Below are positions 11,558 to 21,292 of a stretch of DNA of 38,658 nt, piece after piece. Positions within the stretch are counted from its first letter, which is position 1, and each line of letters begins with the position of its first letter. Both the position numbers and the translations under genes were made by a program. The notes beneath the pieces are model-generated. The model saw nothing but the letters and a program-made list of their open reading frames with translations. It was not told where the DNA came from and made no database searches. This DNA comes from Acidobacteriota bacterium (GTDB lineage: Bacteria; Acidobacteriota; UBA4820; DSQY01): positions 1 to 38,658 of the forward strand of contig JAJYCJ010000021.1 in assembly GCA_021778515.1 (NCBI GenBank), written 5' to 3'.

Positions 11558-12113
11558 GCGCATGCCTCCGCTACCACCTTGTGATATAATTATGGCATAG
11601 CCTGCGGGCCTGAAAGTACGGACGATGGTTTTGCACGTCGCGAGGAAGAAGGGGCGTCCTTCTACCCGGGTTCCCCATCACGCGAGGGGCAATGGGTGGA
11701 GGGAGTGGATTCGCGCCGTTGTCCACGCAATCCCGCCCCCTCATAGAAGAGCGAAGCCATGGGCCTCCAAAAAAATGGGGGATATGCCCCGCCCATTGGC
11801 TTGCAGATAGTGTTATTTATCAATATATTGGGTGATATAGTGGCGCCGATGCCGAATAATTGGGCGCCAGCTGGATGGGGAGAGACTCAGAGTTTTAACG
11901 TACTTAGCTCGAATTGCTGGGTTATATCCCCCTTGGGGCGCTGGGTTGCGCCTGGGAGGTTTACGTGGTGATCGAACATCAGGGATATTAGCCCTCTCAG
12001 TTGGCATGGTGCCACGGGGCTGTGTCGTCGCGAGGAGGACGAGCGCTTTTGGAGAGACCAGGGACCGGTCGTACTAGAAATGAGGAAAGGGATTGGATAA
12101 GGAGTTGAAGGCG
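11558..12113. other. Long intergenic region / leader of the electron-conduit operon
   Basis: No credible gene is seen in 556 bp. The left part may carry the cupin promoter. An inverted repeat (ATGGGGG to CCCCGCCCAT, about 11775-11797) lies just upstream of a good plus-strand promoter at 11801-11829. The predicted transcript leader of about 280 nt includes a 7-bp hairpin (11841-11847 with 11863-11869) and further GC-rich self-complementary stretches near 11925-11960. The core of a GEMM cyclic-dinucleotide riboswitch was looked for and not seen. Confidence 0.6.
11801..11829 (+). promoter_or_regulatory. Sigma70-type promoter of the porin-cytochrome operon
   Basis: TTGCAG (11801-11806), 17 bp, TATATT (11824-11829), in a locally AT-rich stretch that contrasts with the GC-rich surroundings. 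Transcription would start near 11836, about 280 nt before the first gene. Confidence 0.6.
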
Positions 12114-13967
12114 ATGCGAAAAATTCTCTTGGGAGGAGCTCTAGGGCTCTGCCTGGCCGCCGTACTCCCCCTTCCACTCTGGGCACAGTGGAGCGGCGGG
12201 ATAGGGGCGGGCTACGTCTGGCAGAACGCCACGGGAAACGAAGACGCCTTCGTTACCCAGTACGGGGAACGACAGGGCTTCGTTCTCGATGACTTCGACC
12301 TGGCCTACACTCCGGCGGGAGGGCAGCAGGAGTTCGCCCTGAATGCTTCGGGCTTCGGCGGAGCCGAACCGTCTGCGCAGGCTTCACTCCTCTTTCGTCC
12401 CCCGGGCGGCTGGACCTTCACCCTGAACTACGACAAGATGACCTCCTTCTTCAACCTGGCTTCCGGAGATTTTTCCAGGGTCGCCGATCGCTGGACGCTG
12501 GAGCACTACCGGGGCTCCGTGATCTACAACGGCTTCAAGGCGGTCAAGCTCACCTTGGGGCTTCGTTACACCAAGCGGGGCGGCTACGTCTTCCAGCCCA
12601 TCTACGGGCAGCGAAACGCCTTCGGGGCCAAGGACGGCTACGACCAGGACATGAAGGAGGTCTCCTTCAAAGTGGAGACCAAGACCCTGCCGGTCTACCT
12701 CTCCTTCGAGCAGTCCTACGCCGAGTACGAGACGAAGGACAGTTGGTCCGCCGCGGCCTACAACGCCCTCTTCGGAACCCGGGGAAGCCACCTCGCCGAT
12801 CTCTCCACCCCCAGGAAGGACAAGACCGACGTGCCCACGAGCCGCCTCATCGCGGCCTACCACAACGATTGGGTGGACGTGGCGGGCTCATTCCTGTACA
12901 GCCGGTGGAACATGGACAGCACGGGCAAGAGCCTGACCATCTACGACGTCAGCCCCAACGCCGGGCAGTTCCGGTGGCTGGACGAGGCCGTAGGCTCGGC
13001 CAACCTGGATACCCGGGCCGCCAACCTGGACGCGGCCTTCCACCTCGGGGCGGGTTGGTCCTTCCGGGTCGCGGGCGACTACAACAACTCGACGCAGGAC
13101 TCCTATCTGTACGGCCCCCAGGTCCTGAGCCTCGGCCAGCCGGGCGGGGCGTGGCTCAACCTCACGACCCTCCAGAACCAGAACGGATTCTTCAACACCA
13201 AGGACACCACCGCACGCGCCGAGATCGAGAAGGCGGGGTTCGGCTGGTCGGTCTACGGTGGCTACCAGGGAAGCACCCGCGATGTCTCCTGGCGGCGCGA
13301 GAAGGATGATACGCCCGTGGACGTCTCCCGCACGGGGAAAGGGTGGTACGTGGGCGGCGTTTGGTCCCGCTCCCCCCTCCTCCGGGTCAATATGGAGTAC
13401 GAGCAGGGCACCTTTTCCGAGTATATCTTCAGGACCGATCCGGATTCGGTGGATCGGTTTACCTTCAAGCTGTCCTCCGACCTGGGGGGCGGTTGGGCGT
13501 TGGGCGCTCGGTACCGGTGGGAGGAAGGCCAGAACCCCTCCACGGTGGCCTACGCCCACCATCACTCCCAGGCCTACGGCGCCAACGTGGGTTGGACCAA
13601 TCCCAAGGGAACGGGCGGATTCGGCTTGACCGCCGAGAGCTTCACGCTCAACAGCCGGACCAACCTCGTTCTGCCGAGCGGCGCCTCCAGCCTCTCCCTG
13701 TACGATCTCGATTTGCAAACGGTGACCGCCAACGCATACTTCACCGTTGGAAAGGTCCGGATCGACGGTGACCTCACGAATCTGCGGGACACCGGTTTGA
13801 CCTGGCCCTTCCAGACCTGGGGCGCTGACGTCCGCGCCACCATCGACGGCCCGATGCGGACTCAGTTCAGCCTTTTCTGCCAGTACCACTCCTACAACGA
13901 GGATATGCCGTCGCTCAACAACTTCGTAGGAAGGCGGCTAGGCGCGATTGTCCGGTGGAGGTTCTAA
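12114..13967 (+). CDS. MtrB/PioB-like outer-membrane beta-barrel of a porin-cytochrome conduit
   Basis: 617 residues. The signal peptide spans residues 1-24 (LPLWA then QW). The rest is an outer-membrane barrel pattern: many alternating aromatic/polar strands, long polar loops, and the terminal IVRWRF ending in Phe as needed for BAM insertion. Length and gene context match the MtrB/PioB/DmsF family, the sheath around an MtrA-type decaheme cytochrome. No CXXC motif like that in Shewanella MtrB is present. The ATG at 12114 has AAGGAG 9 bp upstream; a TTG at 12093 lacks one. The stop overlaps the next start by one base (TAATG), implying translational coupling. Sequence identity to MtrB cannot be measured here, so the family call rests on architecture and neighbours. 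Confidence 0.8.
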   Translation: MRKILLGGALGLCLAAVLPLPLWAQWSGGIGAGYVWQNATGNEDAFVTQYGERQGFVLDDFDLAYTPAGGQQEFALNASGFGGAEPSAQASLLFRPPGGWTFTLNYDKMTSFFNLASGDFSRVADRWTLEHYRGSVIYNGFKAVKLTLGLRYTKRGGYVFQPIYGQRNAFGAKDGYDQDMKEVSFKVETKTLPVYLSFEQSYAEYETKDSWSAAAYNALFGTRGSHLADLSTPRKDKTDVPTSRLIAAYHNDWVDVAGSFLYSRWNMDSTGKSLTIYDVSPNAGQFRWLDEAVGSANLDTRAANLDAAFHLGAGWSFRVAGDYNNSTQDSYLYGPQVLSLGQPGGAWLNLTTLQNQNGFFNTKDTTARAEIEKAGFGWSVYGGYQGSTRDVSWRREKDDTPVDVSRTGKGWYVGGVWSRSPLLRVNMEYEQGTFSEYIFRTDPDSVDRFTFKLSSDLGGGWALGARYRWEEGQNPSTVAYAHHHSQAYGANVGWTNPKGTGGFGLTAESFTLNSRTNLVLPSGASSLSLYDLDLQTVTANAYFTVGKVRIDGDLTNLRDTGLTWPFQTWGADVRATIDGPMRTQFSLFCQYHSYNEDMPSLNNFVGRRLGAIVRWRF

Positions 13968-14842
13968 TGGCGCGCAGACGCTGGATCATAGCGGCAGTGA
14001 CCATGGGGATCGCACTGGCGGGGCTCTCGCTGGGCCTCCTGGGCGATGAACCCCAGAACGAGGCGGGCGGCTATGTGGGGGCAAAGACCTGCGCCACCTG
14101 CCACGAGGACGTCGTCACCTCCTTCAAGACGAGCGGCCACGGCCTGGCCATGGCCGCCCAGTCGAAGGACCTTTTGGACAGGGCTTGCGAGGCCTGCCAC
14201 GGCCCCGGCGCCGCGCACGCCAAGGACCCCAGCAAGACCAACATCCAACGGGTTCCCACTCCCCAGGCCTGCCTGAGCTGCCACCCCAAGGCCGAGGCGC
14301 TCATGGCCCTCAACATTCCGGCGCACGCCCGGAACAACATCCAGTGCCTGGATTGCCACGCGCCGGCCCACACGCCCGCGGCGGCCGAGCCGCTCCTGAA
14401 GGCCAAGCCCCGTGAGCTGTGCGGCAAGTGCCACGCCACCGAAGCCGCCCAGTTCCTCATGCCCTTCACCCACCGCCAGGGGGAGAGGCCCTTCGAATGC
14501 ACGGCCTGCCACACGGTCCACGGTGAGAACAGGACGGGCCGGCTGCGCATGGAGCAGAGCGGCGTCTGCATCAAGTGCCACACCGACAAGGCCGGTCCTT
14601 TCATTTACACCCACCCGCCGCGCAACGCGGAGGGGTGCCTGGCGTGCCACTCGCCCCACGGCTCGCCCAACCCGAAGATGCTGAACCGCTACCGGGTGTC
14701 CGACCTCTGTCTGGAGTGCCACACCGGCGTGCCCGATTACCCGGCCTGGCATAATCTGAGTCAACCGAGGTTCCGGAACTGCACGAACTGCCACTTCGCG
14801 GTCCATGGTTCCAACCACGATCCTCTATTGAAGGACGAATAG
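13967..14842 (+). CDS. MtrA/DmsE-like periplasmic decaheme c-type cytochrome
   Basis: 291 residues with a signal peptide (hydrophobic residues about 7-24). Exactly ten CXXCH heme-binding motifs are spread through the mature protein (CATCH, CEACH, CLSCH, CLDCH, CGKCH, CTACH, CIKCH, CLACH, CLECH, CTNCH), roughly one per 25 residues. Ten hemes, this size and the preceding barrel gene match the MtrA/PioA/DmsE family, which threads electrons from periplasmic carriers through the barrel. The ATG at 13967 is chosen because GGAGG lies 6 bp upstream; a GTG at 13955 lies inside the preceding gene. The mature protein lacks a membrane anchor. The role is well supported by family and context. Confidence 0.92.
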   Translation: MARRRWIIAAVTMGIALAGLSLGLLGDEPQNEAGGYVGAKTCATCHEDVVTSFKTSGHGLAMAAQSKDLLDRACEACHGPGAAHAKDPSKTNIQRVPTPQACLSCHPKAEALMALNIPAHARNNIQCLDCHAPAHTPAAAEPLLKAKPRELCGKCHATEAAQFLMPFTHRQGERPFECTACHTVHGENRTGRLRMEQSGVCIKCHTDKAGPFIYTHPPRNAEGCLACHSPHGSPNPKMLNRYRVSDLCLECHTGVPDYPAWHNLSQPRFRNCTNCHFAVHGSNHDPLLKDE

Positions 14843-14882
14843 CGACTGGCCCGGCGCAAGCCATCGAGATAGGAGGTAGCAC

Positions 14883-16718
14883 ATGAAACGGATCGTCATT
14901 GTCCTCTCGGTTCTCGCCCTTGCGGCTTCGCTCGGGATCTTCGCCCAAGCGAAGACGGGCGGCGGGGTCTTCGTCCCCGTGCAGGGCCAGGACGTTTTGC
15001 AAACGCTCCACAAGCTGTATACACCGGCCCAACTGAGCGCGGGTGTCTACGTAGGCTCAGAGGTCTGCCTCTCGTGTCACACCCAGGCCGCGGGATGGAG
15101 GGACACGCTCCATTCCCACGCCCTGCGCAAGCCCATGGGCATGTACACGCTGCAGCCGGGCAAGGGCGTCCTGGTCAACTACCTCGGCGGGACCCAGGAC
15201 GACTTCATGATGGGCCTGGACTTCAACACGGTGAGCGGCACGCCCTTCGACAGCCTGAAGCCCAATGCCCCCATCCTCTCCTACCGCGCCTCCGACGACA
15301 CCTACTGGATCCAGCTGGGTCCCGGCGGCATCAAGCTCCAGGTGGTCGCCACGTGGGCCGGCCAGAGCGTGGGCAACGGCCAGCGCTACATGGTCCGCAT
15401 CCCGGTCAGCGACAGGCCCAACGGCTACAGCGCGTCCATCTACTTCGCGCCCTTCTCCTGGAGCGGCACGGGCTACTCCAGCAATGCCAGCAGCTGGTAC
15501 ACCGGTAACGTGCCGAACTACAGCCCAGGCATCGCCAGCTCCGCCCTGGTTTCCCTGCAGGGCCAGAACTACATGGCCACCTGCTCGGGCTGCCACATCA
15601 CCGGCATCCAGGCCGTGGGCCAGACCCCCGCGGGAGAGAAGGTCGTCACCCCCTACACGGCCGTCCTGGTGCCCCAGAACAGCCCCGACTACCCCGACCT
15701 GACCGGTAACGGTACTCCCTCCCTGGCCAACATCGGCTGCGAGGACTGCCATGGTCCGGGTTCGGCCCACGTGGCCAGCAACGGCGACCCCAGCAAGATC
15801 CTCAACCCGAACGACATCACCAACAACCAGCAGCGCTCCGAGGTCTGTCTGCAGTGTCACGTGCAGGTGGCCTCCGCTCCCAACAAGACCTGGGGCTTCC
15901 CCTACGACGAGACCGACAACAAGCCCTTCATCATCTCCAACCCGCCCGATCCCTTGAGCCAGTACCAGGTCTTCACGGGCGGCAAGTGGCCGGACGGCGT
16001 CCACTACATTTCCGCCCGCATCGACGACTTCACCAGCAGCGCCCACTACCAGGGCTCCCACGGCATCGCCTGCAACGACTGCCACGATCCCCACGAGGTC
16101 ACGCAGAACGACAACCAGGTGCGGACCACCGTGACCCACGGCGGCAATACCGTTGCCAACGTCAACGTGGACGACGACAGCTTCTGCTTGGCCTGCCACA
16201 ACGGCAAATACTTCGGCGGCTTCCCCGTGAGCGAGGTGATCAAGTGGAAGAAGGCCGGGTTTGAAGCTCCCATCCCGAACGACATCCGAGCTGCCATCGA
16301 GGCCCACACGCACCATCCCTACGGCGCGGCCAATCCGGACGGCTCGCCGCGCATCCTCGGCGAGTCGCGCTGCGTGATGTGCCACATGGCCCCGACGGCC
16401 GGCCACGGCGACGTGAGCGGCTTCTCGCACACCTTCATTCCCGCCGCGCCCGAGGACACCATCACCTACAAGGACGTCACCGGCCTGGCTTTCGGCGGCA
16501 CGGGCAACGTGAACGCCTGCGCCTCCTCCTGCCACCGGAACCAGGTGCGCATCTGGACCGACGTGCCCATCGACAACAGCTCGCCCAACAACAAGTTCGG
16601 CGCCGGCTACATGAACGGCGCCGCGGTGAGCCTGGCCCAGCACCTCGTGACCTACTTCGGCCCCGGCGGACTCTGGTGGAACACCACCCCCTCGTCCGTC
16701 AAGAGCCAGGGCAAGTAA
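14883..16718 (+). CDS. Large multiheme c-type cytochrome, probable extracellular partner
   Basis: 611 residues with a signal peptide (residues 1-23, cleavage near AQA) and no lipobox cysteine. Seven CXXCH motifs begin at about residues 62, 234, 286, 322, 397, 435 and 497. An eighth site is CASSCH at 546-551, a CX3CH spacing. Between the first and second hemes lie about 165 heme-free residues rich in beta-type sequence (YWIQLGPGGIKLQVVATW, YSASIYFAPFSW), so a non-heme domain appears inserted. It is the third gene of the operon, 40 bp after the decaheme cytochrome with AGGAGG upstream, the position of MtrC/OmcA-type terminal reductases. It is not obviously homologous to MtrC; secretion to the cell surface is inferred. 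Extra histidines could be distal ligands. Confidence 0.85.
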   Translation: MKRIVIVLSVLALAASLGIFAQAKTGGGVFVPVQGQDVLQTLHKLYTPAQLSAGVYVGSEVCLSCHTQAAGWRDTLHSHALRKPMGMYTLQPGKGVLVNYLGGTQDDFMMGLDFNTVSGTPFDSLKPNAPILSYRASDDTYWIQLGPGGIKLQVVATWAGQSVGNGQRYMVRIPVSDRPNGYSASIYFAPFSWSGTGYSSNASSWYTGNVPNYSPGIASSALVSLQGQNYMATCSGCHITGIQAVGQTPAGEKVVTPYTAVLVPQNSPDYPDLTGNGTPSLANIGCEDCHGPGSAHVASNGDPSKILNPNDITNNQQRSEVCLQCHVQVASAPNKTWGFPYDETDNKPFIISNPPDPLSQYQVFTGGKWPDGVHYISARIDDFTSSAHYQGSHGIACNDCHDPHEVTQNDNQVRTTVTHGGNTVANVNVDDDSFCLACHNGKYFGGFPVSEVIKWKKAGFEAPIPNDIRAAIEAHTHHPYGAANPDGSPRILGESRCVMCHMAPTAGHGDVSGFSHTFIPAAPEDTITYKDVTGLAFGGTGNVNACASSCHRNQVRIWTDVPIDNSSPNNKFGAGYMNGAAVSLAQHLVTYFGPGGLWWNTTPSSVKSQGK

Positions 16719-16744: not shown

Positions 16745-16768
16745 GAGGGGGGCCGAAAGGTCCCCCTC
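16745..16768 (+). terminator. Rho-independent terminator of the porin-cytochrome operon
   Basis: A 10-bp stem with one G-T wobble is closed by a GAAA tetraloop (16745-16754, 16759-16768) and followed by ATTTCTTT. It lies 27 bp after the cytochrome stop and touches the stop codon of the convergent acyl-CoA synthetase gene, so it may serve both directions. Confidence 0.85.
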
Positions 16769-18748: not shown

Positions 18749-19915
18749 TCACGGCCCTTCGACCCAGCTCCGGTTGTACTTGGAGTCCTCCGTTCGGCGG
18801 GCGTGGTCCGTGGGCAGGAGCGGTTTGAAGGTGTCCACCATGACGGCCAGCTCATCCGTGCGCCGGCTTCCGACGGAGGCTTCGTAGGTCCCCGGATGGG
18901 GGCCGTGGGGAAGGCCCGCCGGGTGCAGGCTGATGGAGCCGGGGCCGATGCCCTTCCGGCTCGTGAAGTTCCCCTGTGCGTAGTAAAGGACCTCGTCGCA
19001 GTCCACGGAAGAGTGGGGGTAAGGGCAGGGGATGGCCCGCTCGTGGGTGTCCACCAGGCGCGGCACGAAGGAGCAGACCACAAAGCCGCCGCCCGCGAAG
19101 GTGAGGTGGATCGTGGGAGGCAGGTGCACGAGACCGGTCTTGGGCTGGTAGGCGCGGATGGGAAAGGCGAAGGGCCACACGGTGCCGTCCCACCCGATGA
19201 CGTCGAAGGGATTGTGGGCCAGCTCGAAGGCCGTGAGACGGCCCTCCCGGAGCGTTACGAGGCGGCGCGGCGGGTCCAGCGTCTCGGGCCCGCCTTCGGG
19301 CCACAGGGGCTCCCTGAAGTCCCGGTGGGTGTAGGGCGCATCCATGCGGAGCTGGCCCGAGGGGTTGCGGAACTCGTGCGGGATGTCGATGAAGGAGCGG
19401 CCCTCCAGCACCAGCATTGCGGCCGGCCCGTCCAGCCGCCAGCGATGGGCCAATCCTCGGGGCATGAAGACGTAGTCACCGGCCTCGAAGGGAAGGATCC
19501 CCAGTGGGCACTCCACGCGCCCCGTCCCCGCGTGGACGAAGGTCAGCTCGTCGGCCCCCGCGTTGCACACCAGGCTCTCTTCGCCGCGATCGGGGCGAGC
19601 CATCCAGATGCCCACGTCGGGGTTGGACAGGAGGAGCTTCCTTCCGAGGAAAGGGGTTCCGCCGGGGGGGAGCTCGTCCGTGCGGAAGTGCCGCCGGCGG
19701 AGGGGGCCGTCCCATTCGGCCGGAAGCGATCCCGGCATGGGCCCCAGGTCTTCCTCCAAGACCACCCAGTGCGGAGGCTTGCGGTGGTAGAGGATGGTGA
19801 AGGCTCCGCTGAAGCCCTGCCGAGTGAAGCAGTGCTCGAAGGCGAGCTGGCCGTCCCTTTCGAAGACGGTGTGGGGTTTTTGGGGAACCTCACCGCGCTG
19901 AAGCCGATGGATCAT
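18749..19915 (-). CDS. hmgA: Homogentisate 1,2-dioxygenase
   Basis: Opens the ring of homogentisate to maleylacetoacetate in tyrosine/phenylalanine degradation. 388 residues, somewhat shorter than the roughly 430 of the classical enzymes. The C-terminal cupin contains the iron site: PYPHSSVDCDE (His-x5-Glu) and the later His within LHPAGLPHGPHPG. The N-terminal cupin includes DELTFVHAGTGRVE and GDYVFMPRGLAHRW. The start at 19915 encodes MIHRLQRGEVP, which matches the usual N terminus; an AGGAGAAG lies just upstream. It is 57 bp after the 4-hydroxyphenylpyruvate dioxygenase gene and overlaps or abuts the acyl-CoA synthetase gene. No maleylacetoacetate isomerase or fumarylacetoacetase is in the window. 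Confidence 0.92.
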   Translation of the reverse strand: MIHRLQRGEVPQKPHTVFERDGQLAFEHCFTRQGFSGAFTILYHRKPPHWVVLEEDLGPMPGSLPAEWDGPLRRRHFRTDELPPGGTPFLGRKLLLSNPDVGIWMARPDRGEESLVCNAGADELTFVHAGTGRVECPLGILPFEAGDYVFMPRGLAHRWRLDGPAAMLVLEGRSFIDIPHEFRNPSGQLRMDAPYTHRDFREPLWPEGGPETLDPPRRLVTLREGRLTAFELAHNPFDVIGWDGTVWPFAFPIRAYQPKTGLVHLPPTIHLTFAGGGFVVCSFVPRLVDTHERAIPCPYPHSSVDCDEVLYYAQGNFTSRKGIGPGSISLHPAGLPHGPHPGTYEASVGSRRTDELAVMVDTFKPLLPTDHARRTEDSKYNRSWVEGP

Positions 19916-19972
19916 GCATTCTTCTCCTGACGAGCGGCGGCCGGCCCGCCTGGCCTGGGCGGCCGTGCCACC

Positions 19973-21154
19973 TCACTTGGACCCCGCCCAGGCGTGGGGC
20001 GCGGCGAGCGTTCCGCGCGTCTCCTGCTCCCGCTCGATGGCCTCGAAGAGGGCCCTGAAGTTTCCCTCTCCGAATCCTCTGGCGCCGCGGCGCTGGATCA
20101 GCTCGTAGAAGAAGGGACCGCCCATTTCGTCGTCCTGGAGGAGCTTGCCCTCCACGGAGAAGATCTGGAGCAGGTACTTGTCGTTCTCTCCATCCACCAG
20201 GATGCCCAGCCTGCGGAGCGTGTCCAGGTCCTCGCGGAAGTTGGTGATGTGCCGCTCTTCCATGCGCTTGGGGAGCATGTCGTAATAGCTGCCCGGCGTG
20301 TCCAGGAAATCCACGCCGGCCCTCCGCAGCTCGCCCGTGCAGGCGAGAATGTCCGGAACGTGGAAGGCCACGTGCTGCACGCCGGGGCCGCGGTTGTCCT
20401 CCACGAACCTGTAGATCTGGCTGGCCTCGTAGTTGGGGCTCTGGGGCTCGTTGTTGGCGAGCTTCACGTCCGAATCGGGGTCCTTCATCACGATGGAGGA
20501 GAGGCCCGTCCCGCCCTCGTCCTTCTTCACGTCCGAGGTGTGGAAGCTGACCCGCCAGTACTCCTCGAACCCGAGCACGTCCCGGAGCCAGGTCACCCAG
20601 GGTTCCAGCGTCAGGAGGTTGGAGGTGACGTGGTCGATCACCTGGTAGCGGTGGCGGTTGTGCGCCCCCGATCCCTCCGTCGCGGTGAAGTGGACGGGAA
20701 AGGCGTCGGTGGGCCGCTCCACGAACCGGAACCTCACCTCCCCCAGTGGAGAGGCGATCTCGAAGGACCTCACCGGCCGCTCTTCCTGATCCATCTCCTC
20801 CGTCAGGGGGCCGGTGAGCGTGGCGCCCCTGCCCTCCAGAACCTGCCTGGCCCGCGCCGCGTCCCGCACCCGAAGGGCCAGCGTGCTGACCCCCTCGGGA
20901 TGTCTCCGAAGCCAGCGCTCCGCCCGCGAGCCCTTTTCCGCGGACGCCACGCAGCTGAAGTTGATGGAGCCGGCCCGGAAGAGCAGGCCCTCCTCGCCCC
21001 TGTCGCGCCCCCAGCGTTCCTCCATGCGCCCCAGCTCGGGAATGTCCATCTTGTCCCGATAGAAGCGCCTGGCGCGCTCCAGATCCGCCACGACGTATTC
21101 GAAGGAATCCCAGCCGATGATGCCCAGGCCGTCCGAGTGAGATTTCGTCTCCAT
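19973..21154 (-). CDS. hppD: 4-hydroxyphenylpyruvate dioxygenase
   Basis: Converts 4-hydroxyphenylpyruvate to homogentisate. 393 residues with two vicinal-oxygen-chelate halves. The C-terminal half carries the Fe(II) ligands: His in VIDHVTSN, His in VQHVAFHV and Glu in FFYELIQRRG, followed by the signature GFGEGNFRALFEAIEREQ. The N-terminal half begins GWDSFEYVVADLERARRFY. The ATG at 21154 has GGAG about 10 bp upstream; upstream in-frame codons lack a site. It is the first gene of the minus-strand operon and directly supplies the substrate of the next enzyme. The divergent promoter region at 21155-21437 contains palindromes that could bind a regulator. Confidence 0.95.
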   Translation of the reverse strand: METKSHSDGLGIIGWDSFEYVVADLERARRFYRDKMDIPELGRMEERWGRDRGEEGLLFRAGSINFSCVASAEKGSRAERWLRRHPEGVSTLALRVRDAARARQVLEGRGATLTGPLTEEMDQEERPVRSFEIASPLGEVRFRFVERPTDAFPVHFTATEGSGAHNRHRYQVIDHVTSNLLTLEPWVTWLRDVLGFEEYWRVSFHTSDVKKDEGGTGLSSIVMKDPDSDVKLANNEPQSPNYEASQIYRFVEDNRGPGVQHVAFHVPDILACTGELRRAGVDFLDTPGSYYDMLPKRMEERHITNFREDLDTLRRLGILVDGENDKYLLQIFSVEGKLLQDDEMGGPFFYELIQRRGARGFGEGNFRALFEAIEREQETRGTLAAPHAWAGSK

Positions 21155-21292
21155 ATCTTCTTGCTCCTGCCCGAGTGATCCGCGGGCGGATCGGGAGTTC
21201 GTCCCGGGAATCCGGTCGATCAAGACAGCCTGAAAGGCCTGTCTCCCGAGGCCTGACCTTCACTAGCAAGACCAACGCCGGCTCGGCGGGGG

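Follow-up and report, generated by a model that had tools for sequence, protein, structure and literature searches.

A recurrent three-gene module of Acidobacteriota combines a predicted MtrAB/DmsEF-like conduit with an octaheme cytochrome of the OcwA/OmhA/c554 superfamily

We analysed a stretch of 38,658 nucleotides from an Acidobacteriota bacterium (assembly GCA_021778515.1, contig JAJYCJ010000021.1; hereafter the window), which forms contig 38 of a genome of 3.34 Mb that is 97% complete, and in which three consecutive genes encode an outer-membrane barrel, a ten-heme cytochrome (the decaheme) and a third multiheme cytochrome (the octaheme). Porin-cytochrome systems are themselves well known; what we describe brings known parts together in a combination found repeatedly across Acidobacteriota. 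We consider it fairly probable (about 0.6) that the operon specifies an outer-membrane conduit of the MtrAB/DmsEF kind feeding a terminal reductase of the OcwA type. In such an arrangement, with the three proteins presumably assembled into one complex, the electrons would come from quinol-oxidising cytochromes of the inner membrane, whose genes lie elsewhere in the genome, the decaheme, lying in or under the barrel, would carry them across the outer membrane, and the conduit would pass them to the secreted octaheme, which would use an open heme 2 to reduce an acceptor outside the cell. That acceptor could be Fe(III) or Mn(IV), a small oxyanion, or one of a humic or electrode-like nature.

Seven CXXCH motifs and one CX3CH give the octaheme eight heme sites. 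When the product of 14883-16718 is compared with known terminal cytochromes, as the preliminary description of this locus had proposed, the profile of its family (alignment A6, 24 relatives) places it with OcwA and OmhA: in the PDB, OcwA (6i5b, E = 2.1e-22) and OmhA (6qvm, E = 1.5e-13) were matched first, followed by MtrA and cytochrome c554, and MtrC was not found. When the octaheme is aligned jointly with OcwA, its hemes 3-4 correspond to OcwA hemes 3-4 and its hemes 5-8 to OcwA hemes 6-9, and heme 5 of OcwA has no equivalent. Because the distal histidines align along with the heme motifs and the two proteins are collinear, the octaheme, judged from its sequence, belongs to the OcwA/OmhA/c554 superfamily. 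It is not OcwA proper, which has nine hemes, two of them open (2 and 5), and a C-terminal three-helix bundle, whereas the window protein has eight hemes, no heme 5 and a short C-terminus. The same description had held that the third protein is no obvious relative of MtrC/OmcA, and its eight hemes, its signal peptide without a lipobox and the absence of MtrC from the profile matches all agree with this. PF22113 does score above its cut-off (36.5 vs 30), yet its best stretch covers only residues 390-441, about 50 residues around two hemes, and we rejected the MtrC/OmcA label; neither the lipoprotein signal nor the ten hemes and homology beyond the heme patch that would mark that group were found in the octaheme.

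Of the nine hemes of OcwA, two (2 and 5) are open, one (heme 9) has His-Met ligation and the remaining six are bis-His (PMC6703420). Across the octaheme family six non-motif histidines and one methionine are conserved, and the 16 heme cysteines are the sole conserved cysteines. Because only six non-motif histidines are conserved for eight hemes, heme 2 is probably open, as in OcwA, and a set of six bis-His hemes, one His-Met heme and the open heme 2 would fit the conserved residues. Judged by eye, the window protein and every relative carry a type I (AXA-type) signal peptide with no obvious lipobox. The fold of the insert between hemes 1 and 2 was predicted without confidence. Two DxDxNG/DGxxD loops resembling calcium-binding sites occur in most octaheme relatives (residues ~99-108 and 272-280) and are degenerate in the window protein.

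The decaheme contains ten CXXCH motifs and matches TIGR03508 (DmsE) over profile positions 1-257 of 258 with 196.1 bits, against a curated cut-off of 192.2, and is thus a member of the DmsE family, as its earlier identification as a ten-heme MtrA/DmsE-like cytochrome had anticipated. Its residues 37-285 match the MtrA chain of the Shewanella baltica MtrCAB structure (6r2q, E = 1.7e-24), a chain that the PDB file misnames. TIGR03508 is matched by all eight of the module decahemes aligned; against NF041028 the window protein scores 157 bits, far below that model's cut-off.

By itself, the window barrel protein matched no Pfam or NCBIfam model, the cut-offs of TIGR03509 and PF11854 not being reached, and PF11854 had no match in the whole genome. 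Among barrel relatives in the same position, NF041027, the model of the GSU2204 family, which is described as an MtrB/PioB-family barrel, is matched in 6 of 18 (best E = 1.1e-8) and PF11854 (MtrB_PioB) in 3 of 18 (best E = 0.0012), all below cut-off. A profile of the 18 module barrels nevertheless aligned end to end with five MtrB_PioB barrels (hhalign 92.7%, E = 5.9e-8, global mode), whereas reversed, column-shuffled and TonB-receptor controls in the same mode stayed at or below 0.1%. The local hhalign alignment of the two families was weak (17%), eight barrels compared by hhalign with single MtrB-like proteins gave no match, the larger 18-barrel alignment being needed, and no relative turned up when the PDB was searched with the barrel profile. 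Because the family aligns with MtrB over its whole length while the controls do not, we regard the barrel as a remote MtrB relative that lies outside the named family as now defined; the earlier label of an MtrB/PioB-like barrel is therefore sustained for the family as a whole, although the window protein itself has no hit to the family models. A home-made strand counter was discarded since it overcounted MtrB and a TonB receptor.

Profile searches of 396 Acidobacteriota genomes (barrel E <= 1e-40, octaheme E <= 1e-100) found the barrel in 22 and the octaheme in 24, all 22 barrel genomes being among the 24. The barrel and octaheme genes lie together in 19 of the 22, across nine families, and the decaheme directly follows the barrel in every barrel locus inspected; in one genome the octaheme precedes the barrel (G229), and another carries two complete modules (G084). 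Many genomes hold full-length relatives of all three genes in the same order, so the octaheme frame is not a chance reading frame. Pairwise distances between modules correlate, with r = 0.97 for barrel and decaheme and r = 0.65 for barrel and octaheme, the higher value being as expected if the barrel and decaheme form the tighter pair. Coverage beyond Acidobacteriota came from one pattern scan over 85,000 species, able to detect close relatives only. The proposal that the operon is a distinct type in its lineage thus survives as a recurrent, co-inherited three-gene module, but one that is broader than a single genus or family and spans at least nine Acidobacteriota families.

MtrAB pairs are reported to carry electrons across the outer membrane (PMC7198977; PMC4245776). 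The MtrCAB/MtrDEF systems of Shewanella (6r2q) likewise join a barrel to a ten-heme cytochrome, MtrA being homologous to the decaheme over nearly its whole length and the window barrel being a remote relative of MtrB; they differ in that the third protein here is an octaheme of another family, without a lipobox and without MtrC among its profile matches, and in that the window barrel falls short of the family score and has no CXXC. With DmsEFAB, the extracellular dimethyl sulfoxide (DMSO) reductase of Shewanella, the module shares a decaheme inside the DmsE model and the idea of a conduit feeding an external enzyme, but the window operon has no molybdoenzyme or iron-sulfur (Fe-S) subunit and carries a multiheme cytochrome in that place. 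The pair GSU2203-GSU2204 of Geobacter sulfurreducens (OmcK and an MtrB/PioB-like protein), which is induced with hematite and magnetite (PMC4070692), resembles the module through the NF041028 and NF041027 matches given above, whose scores nonetheless lie far below both cut-offs.

Among proteins of solved structure, the octaheme is closest to OcwA of Thermincola potens and OmhA of Carboxydothermus ferrireducens. Both come from Gram-positive iron reducers, at whose surface they are proposed to act as terminal reductases, and both are implicated in Fe(III) reduction (PMC6703420, PMC7829351); OmhA is secreted without a firm anchor (PMC7829351). The three share collinear heme motifs, distal histidines, an insert between hemes 1 and 2 and, as presumed for the octaheme, secretion. 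OcwA, however, has nine hemes and OmhA eleven, compared with eight in the window protein, which has CX3CH at the heme-9 position and little sequence past its last heme, and which accompanies an outer-membrane conduit. Octaheme-TPR cytochromes (such as L050 of Mesorhizobium sp. and L047 of Fodinibius) also have eight collinear hemes (hhalign 99.6%) and the same conserved histidines, but differ in their TPR repeats, in CX2CH at heme 8 and in having no adjoining barrel or decaheme. An octaheme family of ~750 amino acids from several other phyla (L047-L050, L056, L057, L059, L067, L069) shares the octaheme core; TPR repeats were confirmed in L050, and no function was found for the family.

Within Acidobacteriota, MtrB-type, Ext-type and MtrCAB clusters have already been reported (PMC7399161, PMC8805035), and a published tree sets unnamed acidobacterial multihemes near OmhA and OcwA (PMC7829351). 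Syntenous clusters of barrels beside multiheme cytochromes, proposed for metal-oxide reduction, are described in Thermoanaerobaculum aquaticum and Candidatus Sulfomarinibacter (PMC8528874, in its available text); that text mentions neither OcwA nor a CX3CH octaheme, and the clusters may be the same module as that described here. We came across no paper, in the open-access literature searched, that describes an MtrAB-like pair together with an OcwA-class octaheme of the CX3CH kind.

Several observations weigh against a conduit feeding a surface OcwA-type reductase. Export of the octaheme from the periplasm has no support: it lacks a lipobox in every relative, unlike MtrC, and the components of the genome resembling a type II secretion system score only below the cut-offs of the families searched. 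In some cases the octaheme has no barrel near it (G002:C87 and G024:C45, as well as the octahemes of genomes G052, G069 and G075), and the co-occurrence of barrel and octaheme, for which Fisher's test gives 4e-34, is indicative only, because the thresholds were set after the data had been seen and the genomes share ancestry. AlphaFold models, built from thin alignments, show neither the size of the barrel (predicted local distance difference test score, pLDDT, 33.6; 5 sequences) nor the fold of the octaheme (pLDDT 32.8; 14 sequences).

A narrower form of the same scheme can be envisaged: like DmsEFAB, whose substrate is DMSO, the module would be an extracellular reductase of a small molecule, and the octaheme would reduce nitrite, sulfite, hydroxylamine or another oxyanion rather than a mineral. 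The membership of the decaheme in the DmsE family points this way, as does the heme set of the octaheme, since OcwA without heme 5 is the octaheme core proposed for the sulfite reductase MccA (our alignment; description in PMC6703420). Open-site hemes of the OcwA superfamily are moreover catalytic, OcwA itself reducing nitrite and hydroxylamine, although its nitrite turnover is only ~1 per minute (PMC6703420). Against this reading, the octaheme has no CXXCK motif of the kind that marks the active-site heme of NrfA, and no cysteine is conserved in its family beyond the heme motifs. Copper-binding cysteines are a requirement of the MccA active site (as also described in PMC6703420), and an MccA-like copper site would thus have no conserved cysteine ligand. 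We put restriction to a small molecule at odds clearly short of even.

Alternatively, the octaheme could remain in the periplasm and exchange electrons with the decaheme on its inner side, while the decaheme, or else a cytochrome whose gene lies elsewhere, would form the surface end. The type I signal peptide without a lipobox in every relative would suit such a location; PioAB- and MtoAB-type systems function without an outer cytochrome (general knowledge; PMC4245776), and periplasmic octahemes have been reported beside mtrCAB (PMC8805035). The closest solved relatives, OcwA and OmhA, are on the other hand surface proteins, a comparison that is not decisive because their hosts have no outer membrane. 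On balance a periplasmic octaheme seems unlikely to us. An inward conduit oxidising an extracellular donor such as Fe(II), like the Pio and Mto systems, is the least probable of the three, for although MtrAB-type conduits run both ways and the neighbouring O2-dependent tyrosine-degradation candidates are compatible with aerobic life, the octaheme relatives of known function are reductases.

For the conduit feeding an OcwA-type reductase, a candidate source of electrons is present in the same genome, where three successive genes encode a NapC/NirT-type cytochrome with 12 hemes, an Fe-S protein and a membrane protein that is NrfD-like (contig C66, L086 6917-11508, minus strand); from their predicted products these are a candidate quinol-oxidising complex. 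In genome G027 the module is itself followed by genes for a NapC-like 6-heme protein and a 21-heme protein (L028 8994-13631). Other cytochromes were seen in passing. In genome G261 a 10-heme protein of 696 amino acids and a second decaheme follow the module (L151 9700-12739). The genome of the window also encodes a second ten-heme MtrA-like cytochrome (contig C8, L082 5738-8688, minus strand; TIGR03508 156 bits, below cut-off), directly followed, with no third cytochrome, by a barrel-like open reading frame ending in ALRF that the genome search with PF11854 missed; these two genes are possibly a two-gene conduit. A further cluster in this genome encodes large multiheme cytochromes with 11, 11, 9 and 16 CXXCH motifs (contig C79, L083 4091-12356, plus strand).

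The layout of the locus was much as first described (Table 1). The three open reading frames are tightly coupled: the barrel stop TAA (13965-13967) overlaps the decaheme ATG (13967) by 1 base, and a gap of 40 bases separates the decaheme end (14842) from the octaheme ATG (14883). The strong promoter once placed upstream is unsupported, because the sole sigma-70-like site is a 9/12 match and shuffled sequences are expected to yield 0.6 such sites. As for the terminator, a good hairpin stands behind the last stop, and it is this position that makes it plausible; terminator-like sites are no more frequent in the region than in shuffles (3 vs 3.5). The operon is flanked by unrelated genes on the opposite strand; the upstream one encodes a Cupin_5 protein, the downstream one an AMP-binding enzyme that resembles acyl-CoA synthetases. 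Elsewhere in the window (18749-21223, minus strand) are cupin and hydroxyphenylpyruvate dioxygenase (HPPD)/glyoxalase-family genes resembling those of tyrosine degradation (homogentisate dioxygenase-like and hydroxyphenylpyruvate dioxygenase-like), and these candidate genes suggest that the organism is able to use oxygen.

Table 1. Positions of the genes, motifs and signals of the module within the window
Feature	Position	Strand	Remarks
Barrel gene	12114..13967	+	617 aa (amino acids); signal peptide ~residues 1-25, C-terminal Phe, no CXXC; remote MtrB/PioB relative
Decaheme gene	13967..14842	+	291 aa; ten CXXCH; DmsE/MtrA type
Octaheme gene	14883..16718	+	611 aa; Sec signal peptide, no lipobox; OcwA/OmhA/c554 superfamily
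Ribosome-binding site AGGAGG ahead of octaheme gene	14871..14876	+	Read from the sequence
Non-heme insert between hemes 1 and 2	15135..15572	+	Where OcwA and MccA have their beta-sheet domain (alignment; PMC6703420)
Heme 2 motif CSGCH	15582..15596	+	Predicted open (five-coordinate), candidate active site; from OcwA heme 2 and six conserved non-motif His
Heme 8 motif CASSCH (CX3CH)	16518..16535	+	Residues 546-551; at the OcwA heme 9 position; CX3CH in 24/24 relatives
Weak sigma-70-like promoter match, GTGATA-17-AATAAT	11832..11860	+	A+T-rich stretch; 9/12 match, not significant
Probable intrinsic terminator	16745..16768	+	10-pair stem (8 G-C), GAAA loop, T-rich tail; 26 bases past the octaheme stop

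A bolder interpretation, which we offer tentatively and think doubtful as it stands, is that the module represents a new class of surface respiratory enzyme, in which a catalytic octaheme, a member of the NrfA/MccA/OcwA lineage that has only one open heme together with an obligatory CX3CH heme, would be wired to an MtrAB-type conduit. Such an enzyme would let Acidobacteriota reduce a specific acceptor outside the cell and would link the OcwA-type terminal reductases of Gram-positive bacteria to the porin-cytochrome systems of Gram-negative ones. If a conduit of the MtrAB/DmsEF kind does feed an OcwA-type reductase, terminal cytochromes would be exchangeable parts on a shared conduit, the OcwA type, known from bacteria without an outer membrane, here replacing MtrC. 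The combination of barrel, decaheme and CX3CH octaheme would then be a recognisable marker for extracellular electron transfer in Acidobacteriota, one that the standard MtrB and MtrC models missed here, and the three-gene module would offer a defined gene set with which to test metal reduction in this phylum.

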